Assembly: GCA_003218945.1 (NCBI GenBank)
Contig: QHPE01000155.1
Coordinates: forward strand, 1 to 47,009
DNA: 47,009 nt
Direction of reading: 5' to 3'
Source: Verrucomicrobiota bacterium
GTDB lineage: Bacteria > Verrucomicrobiota > Verrucomicrobiia > Chthoniobacterales > UBA10450
Both the position numbers and the translations under genes were made by a program. A model generated the notes under the pieces. The model ran no database searches. It worked only from the letters and a program-made list of their open reading frames with translations, and had not been told where the DNA came from. Positions 1,711 through 45,402 of this stretch are shown in pieces (positions within the stretch are counted from its first letter, which is position 1; every line of letters begins with the position of its first letter).

Positions 1711-1770
1711 TGTAGCGCGAGCCTCTGGCTTGCGACATTGTTAAAACGCAAGCGGGACGCATGCGCTACC
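1711..1770. repeat. TGTAG...CTAC bipartite palindrome, lat-amaB junction
   Basis: A 60-bp imperfect palindrome, TGTAGCGCGAGCCTCTGGC... to ...GACGCATGCGCTACC. On the minus strand its GTAG supplies the TAG stop codon of lat. Its outer arms (24 nt each) match the in-frame copy in mfd (44994-45050) with about one mismatch, while the central loops differ completely. Confidence 0.85.
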
Positions 1771-5216: not shown

Positions 5217-5274
5217 GTAGCGCAAGCCTCTGGCTTGCAGAACAACCGAACGCAAGCGTGACGCTCGCGCTACA
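5217..5274. repeat. TGTAG-family palindrome, fadJ / acyl-CoA dehydrogenase junction
   Basis: GTAGCGCAAGCCTCTGGCTT... pairs with ...GACGCTCGCGCTACA. It fills almost the whole gap between the fadJ stop (TAA at 5276-5278) and the start codon at 5212. It is the same subfamily as the copies at 1711-1770, 38503-38560 and 44994-45050. Confidence 0.82.
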
Positions 5275-5275
5275 T

Positions 5276-7399
5276 TTACTCCTCATAAAATTTCGTCCCA
5301 TCACGCGCATGTCTCTTCAAAATTTTACAAGGGGCAAATTTCTCTTCGGTTTGAGCCAGCCGTTCCAATTCCTCGCAGACTTTGCCTACCCCCAGATGTT
5401 CGGCAAAACGCAACGGCCCGCCACGAACCGGTGCAAAACCCGTTCCCAGAATCATTCCATAATCCGCATCCTCGGGAGACTCGACGACTCCATCCTCTAC
5501 GCAACGAGCAGCCTCATTCACCATTAGAAGGACGAGGCGCAGCGCGATGTCATCCGCTGTAGCCGGCGGCGATGACGCCGGCTGGCTTTTCGTGCTGCTT
5601 TCGCCCCGGCCGGGGTCACCGCCCCCGGCTACAACGCGCCATTGTGCCCGCGACTCGTTAGGCGTCTGCATCTTGCCTTCGTATTTGTAAAAACCTGCGC
5701 CTGTTTTGCGACCAAGCATCTGCTGGTCGCGCAGCCAGAGCAGAACAGTTGGGACGTGATCACGCTGCCCATAGGTTTTTTCGAGTGTGTTGCCGATATC
5801 AATGCTGATGTCCACGCCGATCTCATCAATCAATCGCAACGGACCCATCGGCATCCCCCATTCCACCAGCGCGCGATCGATCCGCTCCGCATCCACGCCG
5901 CTCTCGAAAAGCTCAACCGCATCGAGCAAATAGGGAAACAAAACCCGGTTGACCAGAAAGCCGGGGCTGTCGCGCACGATTACCGGCACTTTTCCGATCT
6001 GCCGTACAAAAGCCAGGCTTCGGTCACGGGTCTCGTCGGATGTTTGCTTCGCGATGACAACTTCCACCAATTTCATCCGACTCACCGGATTAAAGAAATG
6101 CAGTCCGATCACGTGCTCGGGCGAAACCGTCATGTCGGCCAGTTCACTGACCGGAAGCGCTGAAGTATTCGTCGCGATAATGCTTTTTGGGCCGGCCTCC
6201 ATGGCCAACTCGCGAAAAACTTCTTTCTTGATTTCCATCTTCTCCGAAGCCGCTTCGATAACGAATTGCACATCACGCAGTTCCATCGGCGCGGTCGAGC
6301 CGCAAATGCGCGCACGCCCTTGTTTAGCTTTTTCCTCAGGCATCAAACCACGCTTAACTGCGTCGGCGTAGATTTTCTCGATGTTTGCCAGCCCGCGATC
6401 GATCTGTTGGCGAGCGACGTCGCGCAGGATCACAGTGACGCCGCGGGAACTGAGCCATTGCGCGATGCCGGAGCCCATCACACCGGCCCCAATCACAGCC
6501 GCGTGCACGACCTTTTCAGACGCCATTCGCGACGTTCCCTTCTTGTATTTCTCCGCGAGGAAGAAATTGCGAATCAGGTTCTGCGTCGACTCCGTCTTGC
6601 CAAGATCCACAATCCCCTCCAGTTCCAAACGCAATGATTCATCGGGCGAAATCGACAAAGTTTTACTGATGATTTCGCCAGCACATTCGAGCGCCCGATT
6701 TCCGGCCACGCGGTTAGGGACGCCGCGCTGCGGCGTCCGGTCATCGCGGCGCGATGACCCTACCATTTTGCGTTTTTCAGTGCGCAGCATTTGGCGTGCG
6801 CTGTCGAGGAGCTGATCCTGTGGCGCGACATCATCGACGAGGCCGAGCTTGAAGGCTTCCTGAGCGGAATAAAGTTTTCCTTTCAAAATCACTGCGGCGG
6901 CGTCTGAAGCGCCAATCAATCGCGGCAGGCGCGTGCAGCCACCCCAGGCGGGAATAAGCCCCAGCGTTGTTTCTGGCAATCCGATTCGTGTCGCCGGAGC
7001 ATCTGACGCGACGCGATAATCGCAAGCCAGTGCAACTTCGTAGCCGCCGCCCGCCGAGGCGCCGTGGATCGCAGCAACGGTGGGAATTCCAAGATTGGCC
7101 AGGCGATTGAAGACCTGCTGGCCGCGTTCGATGAATTCGCGCATTTCGCCGGTTCTTGCCCCTTGCAAAAGAGTCTTCAAATCCGCACCCGCGACAAAGA
7201 TGGATTTTTTTGCCGATGCGAGGATCAGGCCGCGCAGTGAAGCATCTTTTTCGACGCCATCGAGCTGCTCATTCAACTCATCGAGAGTAGCGGCATCGAA
7301 AATGTTCGCGCCCGAGTCGGGACGATCGAACGTGAGCACGCAAATGTGATCATCACTGGTCTCGCGCCGAATCATTGGAGCTGAAACAACCGCGGGCAT
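5276..7399 (-). CDS. Bifunctional enoyl-CoA hydratase / 3-hydroxyacyl-CoA dehydrogenase (FadJ/FadB-like)
   Basis: Multifunctional beta-oxidation protein of 707 residues. The N-terminal crotonase domain (about 1-210) keeps both catalytic glutamates: Glu121 in SAGGGYEVALACDYR and Glu143 in GLPETTLGLIPAWGG. The C-terminal part (about 297 on) is a 3-hydroxyacyl-CoA dehydrogenase with the NAD motif AAVIGAGVMGSGIA and GLHFFNPVSRMKLVEVV. Two low-complexity stretches interrupt the family pattern and correspond to palindromic repeats read in frame: residues about 212-232 (VGSSRRDDRTPQRGVPN) and about 589-614 (VAGGGDPGRGESSTKSQP). It is the first gene of the four-gene minus-strand operon. An ATG at 7375 (MIRRETSDD) is an alternative start; neither has a strong ribosome-binding site. 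It presumably acts with a separate thiolase that is not in this window. Confidence 0.9.
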   Translation of the reverse strand: MPAVVSAPMIRRETSDDHICVLTFDRPDSGANIFDAATLDELNEQLDGVEKDASLRGLILASAKKSIFVAGADLKTLLQGARTGEMREFIERGQQVFNRLANLGIPTVAAIHGASAGGGYEVALACDYRVASDAPATRIGLPETTLGLIPAWGGCTRLPRLIGASDAAAVILKGKLYSAQEAFKLGLVDDVAPQDQLLDSARQMLRTEKRKMVGSSRRDDRTPQRGVPNRVAGNRALECAGEIISKTLSISPDESLRLELEGIVDLGKTESTQNLIRNFFLAEKYKKGTSRMASEKVVHAAVIGAGVMGSGIAQWLSSRGVTVILRDVARQQIDRGLANIEKIYADAVKRGLMPEEKAKQGRARICGSTAPMELRDVQFVIEAASEKMEIKKEVFRELAMEAGPKSIIATNTSALPVSELADMTVSPEHVIGLHFFNPVSRMKLVEVVIAKQTSDETRDRSLAFVRQIGKVPVIVRDSPGFLVNRVLFPYLLDAVELFESGVDAERIDRALVEWGMPMGPLRLIDEIGVDISIDIGNTLEKTYGQRDHVPTVLLWLRDQQMLGRKTGAGFYKYEGKMQTPNESRAQWRVVAGGGDPGRGESSTKSQPASSPPATADDIALRLVLLMVNEAARCVEDGVVESPEDADYGMILGTGFAPVRGGPLRFAEHLGVGKVCEELERLAQTEEKFAPCKILKRHARDGTKFYEE
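5558..5633. repeat. TGTAG...CTACA element inserted in frame in the fadJ-like gene
   Basis: A 76-bp bipartite palindrome: TGTAGCCGGCGGCGATGACG... and ...CACCGCCCCCGGCTACA. On the coding (minus) strand it is read GTT GTA GCC GGG, giving a Gly/Ser/Pro-rich insert (VVAGGGDPGRGES... to ...SSPPATADD) between the two helical C-terminal subdomains of the dehydrogenase. Confidence 0.85.
6712..6764. repeat. GGTAGGG...CCTAACC palindrome inserted in frame in the fadJ-like gene
   Basis: Two hairpins (GACGCCGCGCTGCGGCGTC and TCATCGCGGCGCGATGA) between GGTTAGGG and CCCTACC. It encodes VGSSRRDDRTPQRGVPN in the linker between the hydratase and dehydrogenase halves. A close relative lies between genes at 46582-46632. 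Confidence 0.85.
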
Positions 7400-15419: not shown

Positions 15420-15586
15420 TGTCATGTTGAGCGAAAGCGCTGCAACGAGATGCGAAGCATGAAGCCAGGCTTTCAAACATCTCAGTCTATTTCATGCACA
15501 ATGGAGAAATATCAGAGATTGAAAGCCTGGCCTCGCCCCGAAAGCTTTCGGGGCTGCGTTGCAGCTTCGCTTCGCTCACAATGACA
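15420..15586. repeat. MITE-like element, copy A
   Basis: A 167-bp unit starting TGTCATGTTGAGCGAAAGCG and ending CTTCGCTCACAATGACA. It has terminal inverted repeats plus inner inverted segments (GCCAGGCTTTCAAACATCTC against GAGATTGAAAGCCTGGCCTC). Copy B at 36134-36305 is the same element in opposite orientation and aligns end to end. Copy A ends 18 bp before the recQ start codon. It contains no open frame, so it would be non-autonomous. Confidence 0.8.
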
Positions 15587-30616: not shown

Positions 30617-32194
30617 CTAAACAGGACTGGTATGTCGCGCGCCGCGCAGACGCCACAGGAAGTAAGCCGGCACGCCGGTCAACACGATCAGAATTCCAAT
30701 TCCTGACGTCGCGGGCGCGAGCCATGCAAGGTCAATGGTCAACAGTGCCGAGAGCAAGATCGAGATGATCGGCACAATTGGATAACCCCACGTGCGGTAT
30801 GGCCTCTCAGCATTCGGCTTTTTGCGTCGTAAGAGAATGACAGCGACGACCATCAGGAGGTAAAACACCAGGTCCGCTGAGACGATGTATTCAAGCAGTT
30901 GATTGTAAACGTTCCCGTAACCCATCTCGTGTGTCGCAGTGTTGAGTGTGACCGTGCGCGGCAAAACCAGGAGCGCCGTCCAGATTCCCTGCGCCACCAG
31001 CGCTGCCGCGGGAACACGATACCGGTTTGTGGTCCCGATTTTTTGAAAAAACAACCCATCGCGCGCCATGGCATAGTAAACGCGCGCGCCGGCGAGAATC
31101 AGTCCGTTGTCACAACCGAATGTGGAGATCATGATTGCCCCGGCCATGCACATCGCGCCGGGCTGGCCGAAGAGCGCGCTCATCATTGCCACGGCTACGC
31201 GATTTTGTGGCGCGTGTTCGATTTCCGAAAACGGCAGCACCGCCAGATAAGCAACGTTAGCCAGCAAATAAAGTAAGACCACGATCCCGCACCCGCCTAC
31301 CAGCGCGCGCACCAGGTTCTTACCCGGGTCTCGCACTTCGCTGCCGATGAACGTCACGTTTGTCCAGGCAGTCTGGGCGAAAAGCGGGCCAACCATTGAT
31401 TTTCCAAAAAGCAGCGCGAGAGCGAATCCACCTGTGACGGTGAGACCAGGTTGCGCCACTTGCGGGTTCCAGCCATTGGCCCACGAGTCCCACCACGCCG
31501 AGCTCAGCGCCGCAGAATTGGAGTTCCAGCCTAACGACAACCCGATCACGACCACCGCAGCCAGCGCAACTGTCTTTGCAAAGGTAAATGTGTTCTGGAT
31601 AATTTTACCGACCTCAAGCCCGCGCGTGTTCGTCCATGTGAGAAAGGCGATCAATGCAATCGCGACCAGTTGTTCGGTGGACAAACTGATCGCGTAACCG
31701 CCTAACCGGATTGGCGTAACCAGGTAGTTATCCGGTGAAACTCTTGTGACAAAAACGCCGAGAAACTTCGCAAATGCAATCGCCACGGCCGCGATCGTAC
31801 CTGTTTGGATCACCAGAAATAACGTCCAGCCATACAAAAATCCCATTGCCGACCCGTACGCTTCGCGCAGAAACACATAAACGCCGCCGGCACGCGGCAT
31901 CATCGTCGCGAGCTCGGAGCAACAAAGCGCGCCGGTAACGGTAAGCAAACCGGCGAGTGCCCACGAGAGCAACAGCCAGCCGGGCGCACCACTCAACCGC
32001 GATGATTCCGCCGACACGATGAAGATCCCAGATCCAATCATCGAGCCGATAACAATCGTGGTCGCGTCAATCGGCCCAAGTGCGCGGACCAGACCGGTCG
32101 TGTCGCTTGGAGACGGCCCGCCCTCGGGCCGCAAAGGGCCTGCTGTTCGGCGCGGGGGCGCGCCGGCTCCATTCTCGGACGGCGTTGACTCCAT
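30617..32194 (-). CDS. APC-superfamily amino-acid permease with a repeat-encoded N-terminus
   Basis: A 525-residue permease with about 12 transmembrane helices of the APC superfamily (SteT/YfnA/LAT-like exchangers). The first helix IVIGSMIGSGIFIVSAESSR contains the conserved G-S-G-I-F substrate-binding motif. Residues about 7-29 (ENGAGAPPRRTAGPLRPEGG) are encoded by a 65-bp palindromic repeat and share this motif with the unrelated RAYT upstream. APC exchangers move amino acids across the inner membrane; the substrate is unknown. The gene lies just after pxpBCA and the RAYT on the same strand; its ATG overlaps the RAYT stop codon (TGATG). Uptake of an amino acid linked to 5-oxoproline metabolism is possible but inferred only from position. 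Confidence 0.9.
   Translation of the reverse strand: MESTPSENGAGAPPRRTAGPLRPEGGPSPSDTTGLVRALGPIDATTIVIGSMIGSGIFIVSAESSRLSGAPGWLLLSWALAGLLTVTGALCCSELATMMPRAGGVYVFLREAYGSAMGFLYGWTLFLVIQTGTIAAVAIAFAKFLGVFVTRVSPDNYLVTPIRLGGYAISLSTEQLVAIALIAFLTWTNTRGLEVGKIIQNTFTFAKTVALAAVVVIGLSLGWNSNSAALSSAWWDSWANGWNPQVAQPGLTVTGGFALALLFGKSMVGPLFAQTAWTNVTFIGSEVRDPGKNLVRALVGGCGIVVLLYLLANVAYLAVLPFSEIEHAPQNRVAVAMMSALFGQPGAMCMAGAIMISTFGCDNGLILAGARVYYAMARDGLFFQKIGTTNRYRVPAAALVAQGIWTALLVLPRTVTLNTATHEMGYGNVYNQLLEYIVSADLVFYLLMVVAVILLRRKKPNAERPYRTWGYPIVPIISILLSALLTIDLAWLAPATSGIGILIVLTGVPAYFLWRLRGARHTSPV
32109..32173. repeat. 65-bp palindromic repeat encoding the permease N-terminus
   Basis: GGAGACGGCCCGCCCTCGGG... through ...GGCGCGCCGGCTCCATT. 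It contains hairpins GGCCCGCCCTCGGGCC and GGCGCGGGGGCGCGCC. It is nearly identical to 32666-32730; differences are concentrated in the short stretch between the hairpins. Confidence 0.88.
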
Positions 32195-32748
32195 CAGAAC
32201 ATCAAATCATGTATCGTCCCGCTATATGGCCACGCTTCGCGCAGATCCACCAGCCCGGCCCGCACTGCGTTTTGTTCGACGTAATTCCATTTCTCCGAGT
32301 AATTTTCGCTGGACCGAAGGTACCTGTCGAAATACTCCGATTGCCAGACGGGCGGCTTAATCAAGAGCACCGCCGCAATGCGTCGTGAACTAACGCTCTT
32401 CCATATCTGCACCCAATCTGACATGCGTTGCGCACCGATTTCAGGTCGCGCAAAAAGATGTACGTGATCGGGCATGATAATGTAATTGCCAACCCACCAG
32501 CCGTCATGATCGGCAGAGCGTTGCCAGATTTCTCGTAGAATCCTCTCGTATTCGCGTGAGCCAAGAATCTTACGTCGCTGATGAGTGCACGTTGTAACGA
32601 AAACAATCGGATTGTCCCGGAACGAAGGTACGTGCGCCAAATGGCGAAATGTAGCTGGTCGTTTTGGAGACGGCCCGCCCTCGGGCCGCAAAGACCCTGT
32701 CCTTCGGCGCGGGGGCGCGCCGGCTCCGTTTTCGATCTTGTCGCTCAC
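32194..32748 (-). CDS. REP-associated tyrosine transposase (RAYT, Y1_Tnp family)
   Basis: A 184-residue HUH-type single-strand transposase. The core has the expected order: PIVFVTTCTHQRRKIL, the metal-binding HxH in IMPDHVHLF (His95, His97), and WQSEYFDRYLRSSENYSEKW followed by NYVEQNAVRAGLV, which includes the candidate catalytic tyrosines (Tyr139, Tyr150). All key positions appear present, so it may be active. Characterised RAYTs cut and mobilise REP palindromes. Residues 6-28 (ENGAGAPPRRRTGSLRPEGG) are encoded by a palindromic repeat shared with the next gene. The GTG start overlaps the pxpA stop (GTGA) and the stop overlaps the permease start, so it is now tightly embedded in the pxp operon. 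A later internal start without the repeat cannot be excluded. Confidence 0.9.
   Translation of the reverse strand: MSDKIENGAGAPPRRRTGSLRPEGGPSPKRPATFRHLAHVPSFRDNPIVFVTTCTHQRRKILGSREYERILREIWQRSADHDGWWVGNYIIMPDHVHLFARPEIGAQRMSDWVQIWKSVSSRRIAAVLLIKPPVWQSEYFDRYLRSSENYSEKWNYVEQNAVRAGLVDLREAWPYSGTIHDLMF
32666..32730. repeat. 65-bp palindromic repeat encoding the RAYT N-terminus
   Basis: Second copy of the repeat at 32109-32173, 557 bp away in the same orientation. It is read in the same frame in both genes, giving the shared peptide ENGAGAPPRR...LRPEGGPSP. Confidence 0.88.
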
Positions 32749-33500
32749 CGCGAACTCTTCGGCGCGCTGATCTTGACGCCATCGCTCTCAAGTCGAGTAC
32801 GCAATTCGCGCGCGAACTCGACTGCGCCCGGTGTATCGCCGTGGACACAAATGGTTTCGCCACGTACGGCCACATCGCGGCCTTCGACGGAACGCACCTT
32901 GCCTTCGCGCAACATCCGCAGCACCCGCTGAACAGCTTCCTTGGGGTCGTGGAGTAATGCATCCTGTCGCGTACGCGGAACCAACCAGCCGTCATTCAAG
33001 TAATTGCGATCGGCAAAAATTTCACGCGCGATTTGCAGTCCATGCGCTTCTCCCGCGCGGGCGAGGTCACTCTTGTCCGGCGCAAATAAGATCAATTTCG
33101 AATCGACCGATTTGATCGCACGCGCGATGGCATCGGCCAATTTGGCATGCCGCACAGCCATATTGTATAGCGCGCCGTGCGGCTTTACGTGATTGGGTCG
33201 CACATCCAGCGCGCAGGCGATCGCCTGGAAAATTCCAAGTTGATAGGCGACCGCCTCGAACACTTCTTCGTTGGATATCGTCACTTCCTTGCGCCCGAAA
33301 TTCTCGCGATCGAAAAAACTCGGGTGCGCTCCGACAGCAACGTCATGCTTCTTGGCCGCGGAAATGGCAGCGTGCATCGTATCGGAATCACCGGCGTGAA
33401 AACCGGTTGCGATGTTCGCCGAGCTGATCAGTTCGAACAATTCGGCATCGTGGCCTGAGCCTTCGCCGAGGTCGGCGTTGATATCGACCGATAATTTCAT
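32745..33500 (-). CDS. pxpA: 5-oxoprolinase subunit PxpA (LamB/YcsF family)
   Basis: A 251-residue LamB/YcsF protein, a subunit of the PxpABC ATP-dependent 5-oxoprolinase, which converts pyroglutamate to glutamate. The family pattern is complete: VDINADLGEGSGHDAELFEL, ANIATGFHAGDSDTM, VGAHPSFFDRENFGRK, HVKPHGALYNMAVRH and ICVHGDTPGAVEFAR. The ATG at 33500 was chosen over the one at 33518 because AGGAGA lies four bases upstream and it overlaps the pxpC stop (ATGA). That ribosome-binding site directly abuts the palindromic element at 33510-33589 (CTACAGGAGA). Last of the B-C-A order on this strand. Confidence 0.95.
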   Translation of the reverse strand: MKLSVDINADLGEGSGHDAELFELISSANIATGFHAGDSDTMHAAISAAKKHDVAVGAHPSFFDRENFGRKEVTISNEEVFEAVAYQLGIFQAIACALDVRPNHVKPHGALYNMAVRHAKLADAIARAIKSVDSKLILFAPDKSDLARAGEAHGLQIAREIFADRNYLNDGWLVPRTRQDALLHDPKEAVQRVLRMLREGKVRSVEGRDVAVRGETICVHGDTPGAVEFARELRTRLESDGVKISAPKSSR

Positions 33501-34570
33501 GACGTCTCCTGTAGCCACGGGCCTGTGGCCCGTCTGCCCTCGGCGCCGCCACTTTCGTTGTCGGAACGGCCCACAGGGCCGTGGCTACAACTCGAATCGT
33601 CCGAAGCAAGCAAGCTAATGCCAATTCTGAAACGCTCGAGATCACGCTCGCGTTCCGACAAAAGGCGATGCGCATCGGCGAGTGGGACTTCAAAAAAACG
33701 CACGTGATCGCCAGCACGAAGTTGTGCTGCGACGGCCAGGTCCACGGTGATCACGTGCGCTATTTTTGGATAGCCGCCGATGGTTTGGCAATCTCCCAAA
33801 AGCAAAATCGGTTTTCCGCTCGGTGGAACCTGGATTGTGCCGGGCGCAACGGCTTCCGAAATAAGATCGGTTTCGTCCTCGCGTTTCATTTCCGAACCAT
33901 CAAAACGAACTCCCATGCGATCCGAGTCTGGTGAAACCGCGAAGACTTCCATCGTTAGGCGTTGAAGCGTCGAAGCGTTGAAGCGATTCGAATCCGCACC
34001 GCGCGCGAAACGCAAAATCGGATTGCGCGTTGCCGGCCTTGCCCAATCATGCGGCGCGGTCCAAGAGGAAATTCCTGCTGTAGCGGCGGTCTGTGACCGC
34101 CGAAATTCTCCCAATAAAAGCTGATCGCCGTCGCGCAATGCGCGCCCTTCAAATCCGCCAAAATTGGCTCGCAAATCTGTGGAGCGGCTGCCAAGAACAA
34201 CCGGCACATCGATTCCACCCGAAATAGCGACCCAGCATCGGCAGCCAATTTGCGCGCGCCCGAATTTCAATTCGTCGCCAGCTTTCAAATGCGCTACATG
34301 CCCGGCCGGCAATGCGCGCGATCCGATCTGCACATCGAATTCGCCACCGCACCAGGCGATCATTCGCTCGTCGTCAAAGCGCAAATGCAAACCGCCGAGC
34401 GTAATTTCCAGCCCGGCCGCGCCTTCATCGTTTCCAACAAGTAAATTCGCCACGCGCAACGCAAATGGGTCAAGCGCACCGCTGGTAGAAATACCAAACT
34501 GGCGAAATCCCGTGCGACCAAGTTCCTGCACCGAGGTGAGAAAACCAGCTCGCGTTACAATCGCCGTCAT
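33497..34570 (-). CDS. pxpC: 5-oxoprolinase subunit PxpC (KipA, biotin-dependent carboxyltransferase-like)
   Basis: A 357-residue protein of the allophanate hydrolase C-terminal/KipA family. Recognised by ELGRTGFRQFGISTSGALDP, VANLLVGNDEGAAGLEITLG, AISGGIDVPVVLGSRSTDL, QVPPSGKPILLLGDCQTIGG and YPKIAHVITVDLAVAAQLR. It pairs with PxpB to activate and open 5-oxoproline. About the last 30 residues (SCSHGPVGRSDNESGGAEGR and on) are unlike the family and are encoded by a palindromic element at 33510-33589. A second, half-element near 34079-34102 gives FRRSQTAATAG. The ATGA overlap with pxpA indicates coupling. The tail probably replaces or extends the original C-terminus without affecting the active core. 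Confidence 0.93.
   Translation of the reverse strand: MTAIVTRAGFLTSVQELGRTGFRQFGISTSGALDPFALRVANLLVGNDEGAAGLEITLGGLHLRFDDERMIAWCGGEFDVQIGSRALPAGHVAHLKAGDELKFGRAQIGCRCWVAISGGIDVPVVLGSRSTDLRANFGGFEGRALRDGDQLLLGEFRRSQTAATAGISSWTAPHDWARPATRNPILRFARGADSNRFNASTLQRLTMEVFAVSPDSDRMGVRFDGSEMKREDETDLISEAVAPGTIQVPPSGKPILLLGDCQTIGGYPKIAHVITVDLAVAAQLRAGDHVRFFEVPLADAHRLLSERERDLERFRIGISLLASDDSSCSHGPVGRSDNESGGAEGRRATGPWLQETS
33510..33589. repeat. TGTAG...CTACA element forming the PxpC C-terminus
   Basis: TGTAGCCACGGGCCTGTGGC... and ...CCACAGGGCCGTGGCTACA, 80 bp. On the coding strand it is read TGT AGC CAC, an alternative stop-free frame. Its last bases run directly into the pxpA ribosome-binding site. Confidence 0.88.
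34079..34102. repeat. Half TGTAG element inside pxpC
   Basis: TGTAGCGGCGGTCTGTGACC followed by GCCGA: one hairpin (GGCGGTCTGTGACCGCC) of the bipartite family, read in frame as RRSQTAATAG on the minus strand. Confidence 0.6.
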
Positions 34571-37660: not shown

Positions 37661-39850
37661 GTGAAAGTTTTCCTGCTGATTATTTTTGCGCTAACGACAT
37701 CCGTCCTGGCGCAGGTCGCGAAGCGGGACATGATGAAACTCAAACGCGTCGGCGCGCCAGTGCCGTCGCCGGACGGGAAGTGGGTTGTGTTCGATTGCAT
37801 AGATGTCGATCTGGAAGCGAATACGAAGATTTCGCATTTGTGGATCGTGCCAGCGACTGGCGGTGAATCGCGGCGATTGAATCCAACGCCGAACCATGAA
37901 GAGCGACTGCGCTTTTCACCTGACGGCAAACAACTCATCTGGACTTCAAAAGCGACCGATCCGACCCAAATCTGGGTGTGCGATTTCGACTCTGGAAGCG
38001 GTGTGCTAGTTGGGAAGCCGCATCAGGTGACGGAGATCTCAACCGGCGCAGATGGCGGGATTTGGTCACCCGATGGCAAGAGCATCGTGTTCGCATCGGC
38101 AGTTTATCCGGATTGCAAAGACGACGCGTGCAACAAGCAGCACGACGAAGAGCTGAAGAAGAGCAAAGTAAAAGCGAAGATTTTCACGCGTTTGTTCTAC
38201 CGGCGTTGGAACGCATTCACTGAGTTTAAGCGAAGCCATTTGTTTGTAATCCGCGCCGACGCGATTGCTGAAACTGTAGCGGCAGGCGTGTCGCCTGCCG
38301 AATCGCAGCCGACACGGCTGCCGCTACAGAAGAAAGAGCCGCGTGATCTTACCCCCGGCGATCACGATGTGCCGCCGTTCTCGTTAGGCGGGCAAGATAT
38401 GTATGCAATTTCACCCGACGGCCAGGAGGTCGCGTACACCAGCAACATCGACGAAGTCGAAGCGGCGAGCACGAACAATGAAATTTTTGTCGTGCCGATC
38501 AATGTAGGGCATGCCTTTGGCTTGTCCGCTTCAGACACGCAAGCCGGAGGCTCGCGCTACTCTAAGAAAATTTCCACCAGTCCCGGCGCCGATACCACGC
38601 CACTCTATTCGCCGGACGGAAAATATCTCGCCTGGCGCTCGCAAGCGCGCGCCGGCTTCGAAGCCGATAAATGGCGGCTCCTGGTTCAAGATCGAGAATC
38701 AGGGAAAACGCGCGATCTGACGGAGAAGTTTGAGCGCTCCGTCGGCAGCTTCACATGGGACCAATTTCCAGTAGGGGGTACAGCGATCCTCTTCACTGCC
38801 GAGGATCACGGCGAGTCACCTATGTTTGCAGCATTTCCAGCCGAGGAGAATCCGATTCCGCAACACCAAGGTACGCCGTCACAGAAACTGCACGACGATG
38901 ACCTCGTGTTTGCGGGTCGCAGTCTGTTTTTCACGCGTATGTCAGCAACAGCACCAAATGAAATTTACAAGCTCGAAATGCCCCAAAATCCCGAACTCGG
39001 CAAATACATCAGCGAGCCGTGGCAGCAGATCACCCACATCAACGACGCGCTGTTGTCGCAGATCGAGATGCAGCCGTTGGAACCGTTCACGTTTAAAGGC
39101 GCGAATGACGACGTGGTTCAGGGGTTCATGGTTAAACCGCCGGGATTTGATCCGAACAAGAAATATCCGCTAAAATTTTTGCTCCATGGCGGGCCGCAAG
39201 GAGCGTGGGGAAACGAGTGGACGTATCGTTGGAACGCGGAGTTGTTCGCGGCGACCGGAAATTACGTGGTGGTGATGATCAATTTCCACGGCTCGACCGG
39301 TTACGGCCAAAAGTTTACGGACTCGATCAGTGGCGATTGGGGCGGCAAACCGTATATCGACCTGATGAAAGGGCTCGATTACCTGGAGAAGACCTACCCA
39401 TTCATCGATAAGAACCGGGAAGCGGCGCTCGGCGCAAGCTACGGCGGTTACATGGCTAACTGGTTGTTAGGCCACACGAATCGTTTCAAATGCATCGTGT
39501 CGCATGACGGGATGTTCAACGCCGAGTCGGCCTACGGCATGACCGAGGAACTGTGGTTTCCGACCTGGGAATTCGGCGGTCCGCCGTGGAAAAAGCGTGA
39601 TGTTTACCGGAAATGGTCGCCGCATGAATACGCGGCCAACTTCAAAACGCCGACACTCGTCTCCCACGGGCAGCTCGATTACCGTCTAGACGTGTCGCAA
39701 GGGTTCGATCTGTTTACGACTTTGCAAGTGTTGAAGGTGCCGTCAAAGATGTTGTATTTCCCCGATGAAGGGCACTGGGTCCTTAAGCCGCAAAACTCGC
39801 AGCTGTGGTACAAAACCGTGAACGACTGGGTGGATCAATGGTGCAAATAA
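37661..39850 (+). CDS. S9 family serine peptidase (acylaminoacyl-peptidase / DPP-like), secreted
   Basis: A 729-residue prolyl-oligopeptidase-family enzyme. The GTG at 37661 begins a signal peptide (VKVFLLIIFALTTSVLAQ); upstream codons run through repeats. The N-terminal beta-propeller (VPSPDGKWVVFDCIDV, RFSPDGKQLIWTSKAT, IWSPDGKSIVFASAV and others) gates a C-terminal alpha/beta hydrolase. The catalytic triad is visible: Ser593 in GASYGGY, Asp673 in SHGQLDYRLD, His705 in PDEGHWVLKP. The typical oxyanion segment FLLHGGPQGAWGNEW is present. Two in-frame palindromic inserts lie in propeller loops: residues about 205-223 (TVAAGVSPAESQPTRLPLQ) and about 281-300 (VGHAFGLSASDTQAGGSR). Probably a periplasmic peptidase cleaving short peptides. 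Confidence 0.93.
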   Translation: MKVFLLIIFALTTSVLAQVAKRDMMKLKRVGAPVPSPDGKWVVFDCIDVDLEANTKISHLWIVPATGGESRRLNPTPNHEERLRFSPDGKQLIWTSKATDPTQIWVCDFDSGSGVLVGKPHQVTEISTGADGGIWSPDGKSIVFASAVYPDCKDDACNKQHDEELKKSKVKAKIFTRLFYRRWNAFTEFKRSHLFVIRADAIAETVAAGVSPAESQPTRLPLQKKEPRDLTPGDHDVPPFSLGGQDMYAISPDGQEVAYTSNIDEVEAASTNNEIFVVPINVGHAFGLSASDTQAGGSRYSKKISTSPGADTTPLYSPDGKYLAWRSQARAGFEADKWRLLVQDRESGKTRDLTEKFERSVGSFTWDQFPVGGTAILFTAEDHGESPMFAAFPAEENPIPQHQGTPSQKLHDDDLVFAGRSLFFTRMSATAPNEIYKLEMPQNPELGKYISEPWQQITHINDALLSQIEMQPLEPFTFKGANDDVVQGFMVKPPGFDPNKKYPLKFLLHGGPQGAWGNEWTYRWNAELFAATGNYVVVMINFHGSTGYGQKFTDSISGDWGGKPYIDLMKGLDYLEKTYPFIDKNREAALGASYGGYMANWLLGHTNRFKCIVSHDGMFNAESAYGMTEELWFPTWEFGGPPWKKRDVYRKWSPHEYAANFKTPTLVSHGQLDYRLDVSQGFDLFTTLQVLKVPSKMLYFPDEGHWVLKPQNSQLWYKTVNDWVDQWCK
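38275..38328. repeat. TGTAG...CTACA element in frame in the S9 peptidase gene
   Basis: A 54-bp (18-codon) element with ends TGTAGCGGCA / TGCCGCTACA and two hairpins (GGCAGGCGTGTCGCCTGCC and GCAGCCGACACGGCTGC). Read ACT GTA GCG GCA. The right half is also present in the intergenic copy at 39961-40023. Confidence 0.92.
38503..38560. repeat. Second TGTAG element in frame in the S9 peptidase gene
   Basis: TGTAGGGCATGCCTTTGGCT at the left and CAAGCCGGAGGCTCGCGCTAC at the right. It belongs to the subfamily of 1711-1770 and 44994-45050. Read AAT GTA GGG CAT. Confidence 0.82.
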
Positions 39851-39960: not shown

Positions 39961-40023
39961 TGTAGAGGCGGGCGTGCCGCCTGTATAGTCCTCAGATCTG
40001 CAGCCGACACGGCTGCCACTACA
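39961..40023. repeat. TGTAG...CTACA element downstream of the S9 peptidase
   Basis: TGTAGAGGCGGGCGTGCCGC at the left and CAGCCGACACGGCTGCCACT then ACA at the right, between the S9 peptidase and the L,D-transpeptidase genes. Confidence 0.85.
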
Positions 40024-42057: not shown

Positions 42058-45000
42058 GTGGAAAAATCAGCGGAACTCTTGGACCGCGTCGCCGCGAGCG
42101 AACCAATCGCGCGTAAAGTCGACGCAATACAACGAGGCCGATGGTCCGTCCAATTTTCGCATGTGATCCAGCCGGCGCAGCCGTTTCTGGCCGCCGTGAT
42201 CGCATACATGTGGCATCGGCTTCCAGCCGATAATCGGCAAGATGCCGACTCTGTAATTTGGGTCCTCTGTCCCAGCGTTCACGCTCAGGAAGTCCTTTAC
42301 GAAAGCTTGCTCAATTGGCAGCCGGACGCGCTGTTCCTTCCAGAAGCAGAGTTAGCTGGAATCGAAAATGTTTTGCCCGATCCGGAAATCGCAGCTGAAC
42401 GGCTGGCGTTGTTCCTGCAAATCGAGCTGAACACCGGCCCGAGGATCATCGTTGCAACGCGCGTGGGCCTCAATCAAGCCGCGCCGAGACGCGGAACGCT
42501 GGAATCTGCGGTTGTTTTGTTACGACGTGGAGCAATCGAGAGGATGGAAGATCTTGTCGAACGACTCGCGACCAACGGTTACGAACGCGTATCACAAGTC
42601 ACCACTCGTGGACAGTTCGCCGTGCGCGGGGGCATCATTGATCTACATTCGTGGCAGGCGCCGATGCCGTTCCGGTTGGAATTCTTCGGCGATCAAATCG
42701 AATCGCTGCGCGAGTTCGATATCGATACGCAAACGTCCGTTCGCGATCTACGCTCGATCGATGTTCTGCTCGCCCACGGCGCGGCGGATCAGAGTGGATC
42801 GGTACGCGATTACGTCTGCACTGGCGATCTGATCATCGAAATCGAGCCAGATATGGAGGGCGGAGCTCTTGCGACGCCGGGCTCGCAGGAGCTCGGACCT
42901 CCGCACATTCAAATCAGTGAAGGCTGGATTGAAAGTGGTCCGGAAGACTTCAGCGGCGCGTTTCAGGATTGCGAGATCGGGGAGTTTGGTGCCGGTGATC
43001 TCGTACTCGCAGAGGCAAAACGCGCACAGTTCGTCCAGCGATTAAAGGAATGGCGCGCCAACAATGCCAGGATCCTCATTTATTTTCAGACTGAGGGCGA
43101 GATCGAACGTTTCCGGGAAATCATGTCCGGCGCGGTAGACGGCGTGGACTTCGTCGAGGGGACGCTCACGCGCGGATTTTGTTTTTCCGCGGCCAATCTC
43201 GTTGTGCTCTCGGCTGCGGAATTGTTTGGACGATTTGCAATCCATCCTCGTCGGCTGTTGCGATTGCGACGCGCAGAACGCCATCGCGTCCAAATCGATT
43301 TCAGGGAGCTCGCGGAAGGCGATCTGGTCGTCCATCTCGAGCACGGCATCGGGCGCTTCTTGGGTCTGGAAAAAAACCCTGTAGGGCAGGCGCGACGCCT
43401 GCCTGACGCCGGTCAGACATCCATGGCAAGCGGAGCGCTTGCCCTACAACAACGGCCGCAACCGCAGGAAGTCTTGGTTCTCGAGTTCGCCGATGAAGCG
43501 AAGCTATACGTCCCCCTCGAGCAGGCGTATCTCGTTTCGCGCTATGTTGGCGCAGGAAAAAAATCACCACCACTCAGCTCGCTTGGCGATGGAAAATGGG
43601 CTCGCGCGAAAATCAAAGCTGCGGCTTCCATTTTCGATTACGCCGGCGAAATGCTCGCTATCCAGGCTGAGCGCCAAATGCGGCCCGGCTACGCATTCGC
43701 GCCCGACACGAAATGGCAGGCCGAATTTGACCGCTCATTTCCGTTCCGCGAAACGCCGGATCAGCTGAAGGCAATCATTGATACTAAGATCGACATGGAA
43801 CGGACGCGGCCGATGGATCGCTTGATCTGCGGCGACGTTGGTTTCGGCAAAACGGAAGTCGCAGTGCGCGCTGCGTTCAAGGCAGTGATGGACGGAAAGC
43901 AAGTGGCCGTGCTCGCGCCAACCACTGTTCTCGCACAGCAACATTTCGAAGTGTTTCGGCAGCGTATGCTCGATTATCCGGTGCGGATCGAAATGCTCAG
44001 CCGTTTCCGCTCGCACTCCGAACAGAAAAAAGTGCTGCAATTATTGCGCACAGGCGGTGTGGACATCGTCATTGGCACCCACCGTCTCATTTCGGGGGAC
44101 CTCGTGTTCAAGGACCTCGGCCTGGTTGTAATTGATGAGGAACAACGGTTCGGTGTTCTGCACAAAGAGAAATTCAAAGAGCTCTTCAAGCTCGTGGATG
44201 TCCTTACACTTTCCGCCACGCCGATTCCACGCACCCTGTACCTTTCACTGGTGGGCGTGAAAGACATGTCCACGATCGAGACTCCCCCGCTCAACCGTCT
44301 GCCGGTCGAAACAGTCGTGTCCGCGTACGACGAACGAATCATTCGTGGCGCTATCGAACGCGAACTGGAACGCCAGGGCCAGGTGTTCTTTCTGCACAAC
44401 CGCATCGCCAGCATCGAGCGGGTGCGCGAGCGGATCATGCATCTTTGTCCGCAGGCGAGAGTCGAAATCGGTCACGGCCAGATGGATGCCGACGAACTCG
44501 AAGCGGTGATGGCGCGATTTGTCGCCGGCAAAACTGACCTGCTCGTTTGCACGACCATCATCGAAAGCGGTTTGGACATTCCGAACGCAAACACGATCAT
44601 CATCGATCGCGCGGACCAATTTGGCCTCGCCGATTTGTATCAATTGCGCGGGCGCGTCGGCCGCGCCGAGCACAAGGCGTATGCCTATCTGCTTCTGCCG
44701 CGAGAAATGATGACAGTCGGTGCCGCGCGCAAGCGGATCAGCGCCATTAAGCAATACAGCTCGTTAGGGGCGGGCTTTCGCATCGCCATGCGAGATCTCG
44801 AGATCCGAGGCGCAGGCAGCCTTCTTGGCACAGCCCAGAGCGGCCACATCATGGCTGTGGGTTTCGACCTGTATTGTCAGTTGCTCAAGCAGGCCGTGGC
44901 GCAGCTGAAAGGACAAAAGCCACGAGTTCGGCTCGATGTGGACGTGCGGCTCGATTTTGTTGTGACCAATGAAGCGGAGTTTAGTGCGCCAAATGTAGCG

Positions 45001-45402
45001 CGAGCCTCTGGCTTGCGTGCCCGGGGCGCAAGCGAGACGCATGCGCTACCTTGCATTCCCGCGTTCATTCCGGTCGCCTACATGAGCGACCCCGCCACGC
45101 GCATACGCGCGTACCGGGAGATTGCGGAAATCACCTCGCGCGAGCAACTGGGGCGGTTGCGTCGCGACTGGCGCGATCGTTTCGGACGGTTTCCGCCTGC
45201 CGCCGAGAATTTATTCGCTCTGGTTGAGATCAAGCTTGCCGCGGCAGAATCAGGCGTGAACCGTGTCGAAGTGCGCGAGCGCAAAGTGATGTTGACGCGG
45301 CACGGGGATTTTATACTTGTCGCGGGCAAATTCCCTCGTTTAGTTGGATCGAAAATCGATCAACACCTCCCGGAAATTGTCGAAGTGATTAAGAAGTTAT
45401 GA
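42058..45402 (+). CDS. mfd: Transcription-repair coupling factor Mfd, with two repeat-encoded inserts
   Basis: A 1114-residue Mfd that removes stalled RNA polymerase from damaged DNA and recruits UvrA. Order: UvrB-homology domain (about 1-330; GYERVSQVTTRGQFAVRGGI), RNA-polymerase-interaction domain (about 420-500; EGDLVVHLEHGIGRFLGLEK), RecG-like helicase with Walker A GDVGFGKTE (about 592-600), DEEQRFGV (about 693) and the C-terminal TRCF domain. Start is GTG. Two low-complexity inserts break family alignment: about 441-464 (VGQARRLPDAGQTSMASGAL) between GLEK and EVLVLEFADEAKLYVP, and about 979-998 (VARASGLRARGASETHALP) before AFIPVAYMSDPATRIRAYRE. Both are TGTAG palindromes read in frame with lengths divisible by three. 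The motifs on either side are intact, so the protein is probably functional. Confidence 0.95.
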   Translation: MEKSAELLDRVAASEPIARKVDAIQRGRWSVQFSHVIQPAQPFLAAVIAYMWHRLPADNRQDADSVIWVLCPSVHAQEVLYESLLNWQPDALFLPEAELAGIENVLPDPEIAAERLALFLQIELNTGPRIIVATRVGLNQAAPRRGTLESAVVLLRRGAIERMEDLVERLATNGYERVSQVTTRGQFAVRGGIIDLHSWQAPMPFRLEFFGDQIESLREFDIDTQTSVRDLRSIDVLLAHGAADQSGSVRDYVCTGDLIIEIEPDMEGGALATPGSQELGPPHIQISEGWIESGPEDFSGAFQDCEIGEFGAGDLVLAEAKRAQFVQRLKEWRANNARILIYFQTEGEIERFREIMSGAVDGVDFVEGTLTRGFCFSAANLVVLSAAELFGRFAIHPRRLLRLRRAERHRVQIDFRELAEGDLVVHLEHGIGRFLGLEKNPVGQARRLPDAGQTSMASGALALQQRPQPQEVLVLEFADEAKLYVPLEQAYLVSRYVGAGKKSPPLSSLGDGKWARAKIKAAASIFDYAGEMLAIQAERQMRPGYAFAPDTKWQAEFDRSFPFRETPDQLKAIIDTKIDMERTRPMDRLICGDVGFGKTEVAVRAAFKAVMDGKQVAVLAPTTVLAQQHFEVFRQRMLDYPVRIEMLSRFRSHSEQKKVLQLLRTGGVDIVIGTHRLISGDLVFKDLGLVVIDEEQRFGVLHKEKFKELFKLVDVLTLSATPIPRTLYLSLVGVKDMSTIETPPLNRLPVETVVSAYDERIIRGAIERELERQGQVFFLHNRIASIERVRERIMHLCPQARVEIGHGQMDADELEAVMARFVAGKTDLLVCTTIIESGLDIPNANTIIIDRADQFGLADLYQLRGRVGRAEHKAYAYLLLPREMMTVGAARKRISAIKQYSSLGAGFRIAMRDLEIRGAGSLLGTAQSGHIMAVGFDLYCQLLKQAVAQLKGQKPRVRLDVDVRLDFVVTNEAEFSAPNVARASGLRARGASETHALPCIPAFIPVAYMSDPATRIRAYREIAEITSREQLGRLRRDWRDRFGRFPPAAENLFALVEIKLAAAESGVNRVEVRERKVMLTRHGDFILVAGKFPRLVGSKIDQHLPEIVEVIKKL
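43380..43448. repeat. TGTAG...CTACA element inserted in frame in mfd (first)
   Basis: A 69-bp (23-codon) bipartite palindrome: TGTAGGGCAGGCGCGACGCC at the left and GGCAAGCGGAGCGCTTGCCC then TACA at the right. Read CCT GTA GGG. It lies in the RNA-polymerase-interaction domain, in the loop between two strands of its Tudor-like barrel. Confidence 0.93.
44994..45050. repeat. TGTAG...CTACC element inserted in frame in mfd (second)
   Basis: A 57-bp (19-codon) element, TGTAGCGCGAGCCTCTGGCT at the left and GAGACGCATGCGCTACC at the right. Arms match the lat-amaB copy (1711-1770) almost exactly. Read AAT GTA GCG in the C-terminal TRCF domain. Confidence 0.93.

Follow-up and report, generated by a model that had tools for sequence, protein, structure and literature searches.

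GTAG REPs lying inside genes were described in 2013, with cases in Verrucomicrobia among them (Di Nocera et al., 2013; PMC3733652); Opitutus terrae had the highest number of intragenic GTAG cases, many of the cases in that study were hosted by repair or replication genes, and recB of two Xanthomonas species carried different REPs at about the same site. The same study counted the Rickettsia palindromic elements RPE-4 and RPE-6 with the CGTC repeats and not with GTAG. RAYT genes are bordered by inverted REPs in gammaproteobacteria, and RAYT homologues were found only in that class and close groups (Nunvar, 2010; PMC2817692). In the literature searched, no paper linked Udaeobacter with palindromes.

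The window analyzed here is a stretch of 47,009 nucleotides from the MAG of a soil bacterium, a Candidatus Udaeobacter (Verrucomicrobiota). This MAG (the own genome below) is incomplete and comprises 2.8 Mb in 250 contigs. The nearest records encoding the window Mfd are soil MAGs of Verrucomicrobia, Chthoniobacterales, several of them named Candidatus Udaeobacter. The mfd product scores 935.8 bits against the TIGR00580 (mfd) model, whose cut-off is 800, and its gene contains two palindromic elements that a preliminary description had pointed out.

42058..45402, + strand: mfd, transcription-repair coupling factor, the host gene; 1114 aa, TIGR00580 equivalog match
43380..43448, + strand: element 1, inverted pair of GTAG-headed hairpins (REPIN); 69 bp, residues 441-464
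44994..45050, + strand: element 2, inverted pair of GTAG-headed hairpins; 57 bp, residues 979-998, of a family abundant in the own genome

Both palindromes are real, and both are read in the phase xxT GTA Gxx, as first described, with the Mfd motifs on either side intact. They had been called bipartite palindromes with TGTAG/CTACA ends. Each does have two parts, but these are two head-tagged hairpins facing one another and not one palindrome. Element 2 ends in CTACC, not CTACA. The arms of element 1 are TGTAGGGCAGGCGCGACGCCTGCC and GGCAAGCGGAGCGCTTGCCCTACA. In each element an unpaired GTAG head (the class admits GTAG or GTRG) stands 5′ of each hairpin on its own strand, so that the anatomy is that of a REPIN (REP doublet). 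When folded as single-stranded DNA and compared with dinucleotide shuffles (n=200 per element), element 1 gave a z-score of -4.9 (0/200 shuffles as stable) and element 2 one of -3.3 (2/200). The figures of 69 and 57 bp are palindrome lengths, not insertion lengths; compared with empty sites, the place of element 1 (site 1) is longer by a net +66 to +81 nt or so, and that of element 2 (site 2) by +48 nt.

Element 1 lies in the turn between two beta strands (residues 430-440 and 470-476) of an AlphaFold2 model, within what we take to be the RNAP-interaction domain of Mfd; element 2 lies immediately ahead of the C-terminal TRCF domain. The model (mean pLDDT 74) puts sites 1 and 2 in loops, at 444-467 and 980-995, as the preliminary description had expected, but these loops are modeled with low confidence. 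Together with 267-277 they are the low-confidence stretches that coincide with three inserts, where pLDDT is low partly because counterparts are missing from the alignment.

The count of two inserts in the window mfd proved too low; there are at least four.

42855..42902, + strand: third in-frame insert (site 3), family E, GGAGGGCGGAGCTC..GAGCTCGGACCTCC; residues ~266-282
42210..42249, + strand: fourth in-frame insert, hairpins ATCGGCTTCCAGCCGAT and TCGGCAAGATGCCGA; residues ~50-60, basal congeners 33 nt shorter

The third was found with foreign cassettes as queries against the own genome. At least 15 congeners are 36 nt (12 codons) shorter there, in a continuous alignment. Its head is GGAG rather than GTAG, and its family, here at site 3, is found at site 1 in other species. 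Further mfd inserts occur in other species at residues ~241, ~292 and ~361, and across taxa this one protein has at least six insertion sites. Repeats like CTTCGCTTCGCTCAGGATGAC, found between genes (window 11874, 15565, 34677 and 35498), resemble the in-frame insert at Mfd residue ~292 of G034, G036 and L116.

About 50 Chthoniobacterales mfd genes were compared, with the genus represented by the own genome and 34 congeners (~35 sampled species); every sequence compared is a MAG contig, so the assembly may mix local strains. In the protein alignment of the genus, residues 441-464 and 979-998 fall between conserved motifs and vary greatly in length. At the DNA level site 1 contains nothing or one of five palindrome families, assigned by eye here as at the other sites.

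Family A (own): TGTAGGGCAGGCG..
Family B: GGTAGGGCGCGACC..GTCCCTACC
Family C: CGTAGCACAGGCTTCCAGCCTGTG..CTAC
Family D: TGTAGCGGTAGGCGTGTCGCC..
Family E: GGAGGGGCGAGCTCC..

Site 1 is empty in two members of the genus (L058 and L059) and in many outside genera. Site 2 contains nothing or one of four families: the own, a short TGTAGGGGAAGCTGGCAGCTTCCCCTACA palindrome, and two more types. On an mfd tree from which the insert columns were left out, the palindrome families are interleaved; site 1 requires at least 20 changes, site 2 at least 9 and site 3 at least 7. A foldback z below -2 was found for 20/34 site-1 inserts, against 5/92 control segments taken from those genes; several cassettes at this site have decayed and now fold poorly. 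With congeners and outgroups either lacking the palindromes or carrying unrelated ones at the same place, the proposal of mobile-type repeats inserted in frame is upheld. The alignment suggested as a check did yield empty and differently filled sites, but an exact empty site with identical flanks was found for neither element 1 nor element 2 among the close strains compared. Nor are these stretches conserved as protein in distant Mfd, E. coli Mfd being gapped at site 1. Site 2 of a distant Mfd relative, 55% identical (L129, from MAG BP7.bin11), is occupied by a palindrome with a GTGG head, GTGGGGCGAGGCTCC..CTCGCCCCAC. Short palindromes of the CCCCGAAAGCTTTCGGGG type are nested in the family-A cassette of three congeners (site 1 of L033, L050 and L052) and are dispersed in the own genome, including window 15536-15553. 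The mfd of L050 (G034, contig C115) has one in-frame TAA near codon 875, either a sequencing error or the mark of a pseudogene.

Clean insertions are seen between near-identical genes. The sister pair L037 (G013) and L054 (G031), with mfd 96.7% identical, differs by two clean in-frame blocks, one of 129 bp at residue ~361 and one of 30 bp at site 2; the site-1 cassette is wholly exchanged within codons ~430-470, and all other 60-codon blocks are 92-99% identical. Both blocks were inspected for a target-site duplication such as accompanies MITEs with terminal inverted repeats: the ends of the 30-bp insertion in L054 are ambiguous by at most 2 bp (CC), and a 3-bp TCG stands at either end of the 129-bp insert. 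The same 129-bp block separates L030 from L052, and it is at the same place in three non-sister lineages; it may have been gained repeatedly, lost precisely or exchanged.

The elements belong to families dispersed in the genome. A strict pattern matches the own genome at 22 sites, whereas its reversed control matches at 1, and copies of the pattern are present in 29 of the 35 genus genomes, the own counted. The element 2 cassette, used as query, found 20 matching stretches in own-genome sequence. In 581 kb of own contigs, a hairpin follows 2.4% of GTAG occurrences, against 0.2-0.7% for tetramers of the same letters and 0.2% for CTAC; the head is therefore directional. A strict long-foldback scan (17/20 in both arms) missed both mfd elements because each consists of two separate hairpins, and was replaced by a paired-hairpin score with tetramer controls. 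At threshold 19 this score gave 36 GTAG pairs in the same 581 kb; most control tetramers gave zero or few, the highest being AGGT, GGTA and TAGG, whose pairs may partially overlap true GGTAGG elements. As in the mfd elements, two close REPs stand in inverted orientation in these genome pairs. Placed with a simple codon-model gene caller, 17 of the 36 are intergenic, 7 are at a gene edge and 12 are within genes. The phase of the GTAG head in the 12 in-gene pairs is GTA in 10, xGT AGx in 2 and a TAG stop in 0. Beyond mfd, the hosts of in-gene pairs include an S9 peptidase (two pairs), 3-hydroxyacyl-CoA dehydrogenase, two 2-oxoacid dehydrogenase acyltransferases, a fused 2-oxoacid dehydrogenase E1/E2 protein, dnaX (DNA polymerase III gamma/tau), an Lhr-type helicase, the YchF GTPase and an HD-domain protein. 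Pairs in the window are as follows.

38276..38327, + strand: first of two GTAG REP pairs in the gene for the S9 peptidase (37661-39850); congeners have other families or an empty site
38504..38560, + strand: second of the two GTAG REP pairs in that gene (37661-39850); several congeners are 48 nt shorter, others have another family
5559..5632, - strand: GTAG REP pair in the gene for 3-hydroxyacyl-CoA dehydrogenase (5276-7375)
1712..1769, no strand assigned: GTAG REP pair of the element-2 family, gene edge
5217..5273, no strand assigned: GTAG REP pair of the element-2 family, intergenic
39962..40022, no strand assigned: GTAG REP pair of family D, intergenic
33511..33588, no strand assigned: GTAG REP pair that extends across the start of ORF 32745-33518(-), close to the RAYT

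The dnaX linker has the same mosaic of palindrome families as the S9 peptidase sites.

A candidate mover is encoded in the window.

32194..32748, - strand: RAYT (REP-associated tyrosine transposase), candidate mover; 91.1 bits against NF047646 (cut-off 80), 9 kb from mfd

Four proteins of the own genome, this one included, score above the cut-off of NF047646, the NCBIfam RAYT model, and a fifth falls just below. Inverted GTAG REPs border the RAYT genes of contigs C141 and C189 on either side; these REPs belong neither to the family of element 1 nor to that of element 2. Copies of the GTAG pattern correlate only weakly with Y1 hits per genome (Spearman 0.26, P 0.13). The two Y1 proteins that scored best against Pfam, on contigs C229 and C89, were rejected as movers, being IS200-type TnpA and not RAYT, and weak PF01797 matches within long ORFs (such as a 925-aa ORF on C9 that also matches Mfd) were taken as chance. 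A 71-bp repeat, 90% identical (GGAGACGGCCCGCCC...), is present at window 32107-32177 and 32664-32734, within the sequence that codes for the N-terminal parts of the RAYT ORF and its neighbor, ORF 30617-32194(-), and is possibly another coding repeat. The RAYT ORF on C141 has an in-frame GTAGCCGGGATC hairpin (L175 6895-6917) read as the peptide AVAGIDDPG.

We consider it highly probable that the mfd stretches are in-frame GTAG REP doublets, presumably moved by RAYT and filtered by loop tolerance, and that their slots are refilled by different families. Elements 1 and 2 would then be in-frame copies of REPINs, short non-autonomous mobile palindromes that are mostly intergenic. Judging from the enzyme family, a copy probably travels as single-stranded DNA through the action of a RAYT, a Y1 HUH transposase reading the GTAG head and hairpin. 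Copies would arrive in genes at random, and those would survive that keep the frame open in a loop tolerant of extra residues, the others being purged; the surviving peptides would be neutral. The handful of Mfd loops that pass this filter would be refilled repeatedly, and the REP families that fill them would differ between species. Once inserted, the DNA would drift, and cassettes would be swapped or lost, possibly via short-tract recombination between species. Against this reading stand the GGAG head of the family-E insert at site 3, the weak correlation of GTAG pattern copies with Y1 hits, the decay of several site-1 cassettes, the failure to find an exact empty site for element 1 or 2 among close strains, and the possible mixing of strains in MAG assemblies.

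Such recombination could have the larger share. If cassettes spread mainly as mfd alleles, by short-tract homologous recombination such as natural transformation, and original insertions were rare, repeated occupancy would reflect exchange more than repeated insertion. We hold this tentatively, at somewhat less than even weight. The sister pair speaks for it, since L054 differs from its otherwise closely matching sister in the segment with the family-E cassette, whose linker matches L060 and L034; so do L032, which joins a family B left arm to a family C right arm, and the shared place of the residue-361 insert in non-sister lineages. Yet such swaps could be mimicked by MAG assembly, no transfer tract is visible beside the 129-bp block (the L052/L060 flanks are 73-93% identical, not clearly above the rest of the gene), and exchange does not account for the origin of the five or more unrelated families at one site. 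Another candidate is replication template switching, which would make palindromes, or keep them in place, at imperfect inverted repeats with no transposase. Paired changes within one cassette family (the site-2 palindromes of L029, L030 and L033) fit this, as do palindromes nested within older ones (L033, L048 and L050); as a sign of selection on the hairpin the paired changes would be ambiguous, because independent source copies would give the same sign. Template switching is very improbable, however: the same sequences form dispersed genome families with a directional GTAG head, which counts strongly against it as the source, and whole 129-bp and 30-bp blocks appear cleanly.

The peptides might also have been co-opted, tuning Mfd (or mRNA structure) and being kept by selection. 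Site 1 lies in the presumed RNAP-interaction domain, an assignment that draws on our knowledge of Mfd, and repair and replication genes (mfd, dnaX, the Lhr-type helicase) are among the hosts. A role of this kind for REPs in repair genes has been proposed (PMC3733652). But metabolic enzymes are also among the hosts, several congeners do without an insert, and from species to species one site holds unrelated sequences, whose divergence keeps pace with that of the gene or exceeds it (for example, family A is 62-83% identical in the cassette and 80-88% in the gene); we think co-option unlikely. That the stretches are ordinary native Mfd loops, palindromic by chance, is scarcely credible: Mfd loop length does vary between phyla, but the fold z-scores, the matches to dispersed repeats, the unrelated palindromes at the same codons in sister species and the lack of an E. 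coli counterpart at site 1 refute it.

There is a wider reading, which we put at near even odds, leaning slightly to doubt: a few loops of Mfd, and of the S9 peptidase and dnaX linkers, may be standing slots where unrelated mobile palindromes insert, replace one another and are lost precisely, time and again, throughout the genus. If so, REP traffic would keep generating variation in protein length in a soil bacterium that is dominant. The sister species are numerous enough to follow the filling, emptying and replacement of single sites, and two questions become directly testable: whether RAYTs are still moving REPs, and whether the peptides are neutral or tune proteins such as Mfd.

The Rickettsia palindromic elements, to which the preliminary description had likened this system, are also palindromes read in frame as extra peptide in housekeeping proteins (summarized in PMC3733652), and palindromes read in frame within functional protein genes, yet absent from orthologues, are what we find in mfd and in the S9 peptidase and dnaX genes. 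The organism is a different one, and the likeness is functional, not drawn from sequence comparison; the system works alike but belongs with GTAG REPs/REPINs and RAYTs and is not a separate new one. Our case extends in-frame palindrome insertion, classically known from the obligate intracellular Rickettsia, to soil bacteria that are free-living and very abundant. What the system has in common with REPINs and RAYTs (PMC3116915, PMC2817692) is inverted REP doublets, RAYTs bordered by inverted REPs and tens of copies per genome; the classic REPINs of Pseudomonas, however, are almost wholly extragenic, whereas one third of the scored pairs here are inside genes. The elements are of the intragenic GTAG REP kind already described (PMC3733652), with a GTAG head, a hairpin, mostly head-to-head dimers and several families per genome, a mostly intergenic location with a minority in genes, DNA-repair hosts and some genes hit twice. 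Mfd is absent from the main text of that paper, and to its picture the present locus adds at least six sites in one protein, a site with five families, empty sites and near-identical filled and empty pairs. What is new is Mfd as a host and the repeated re-use of fixed slots by many families.
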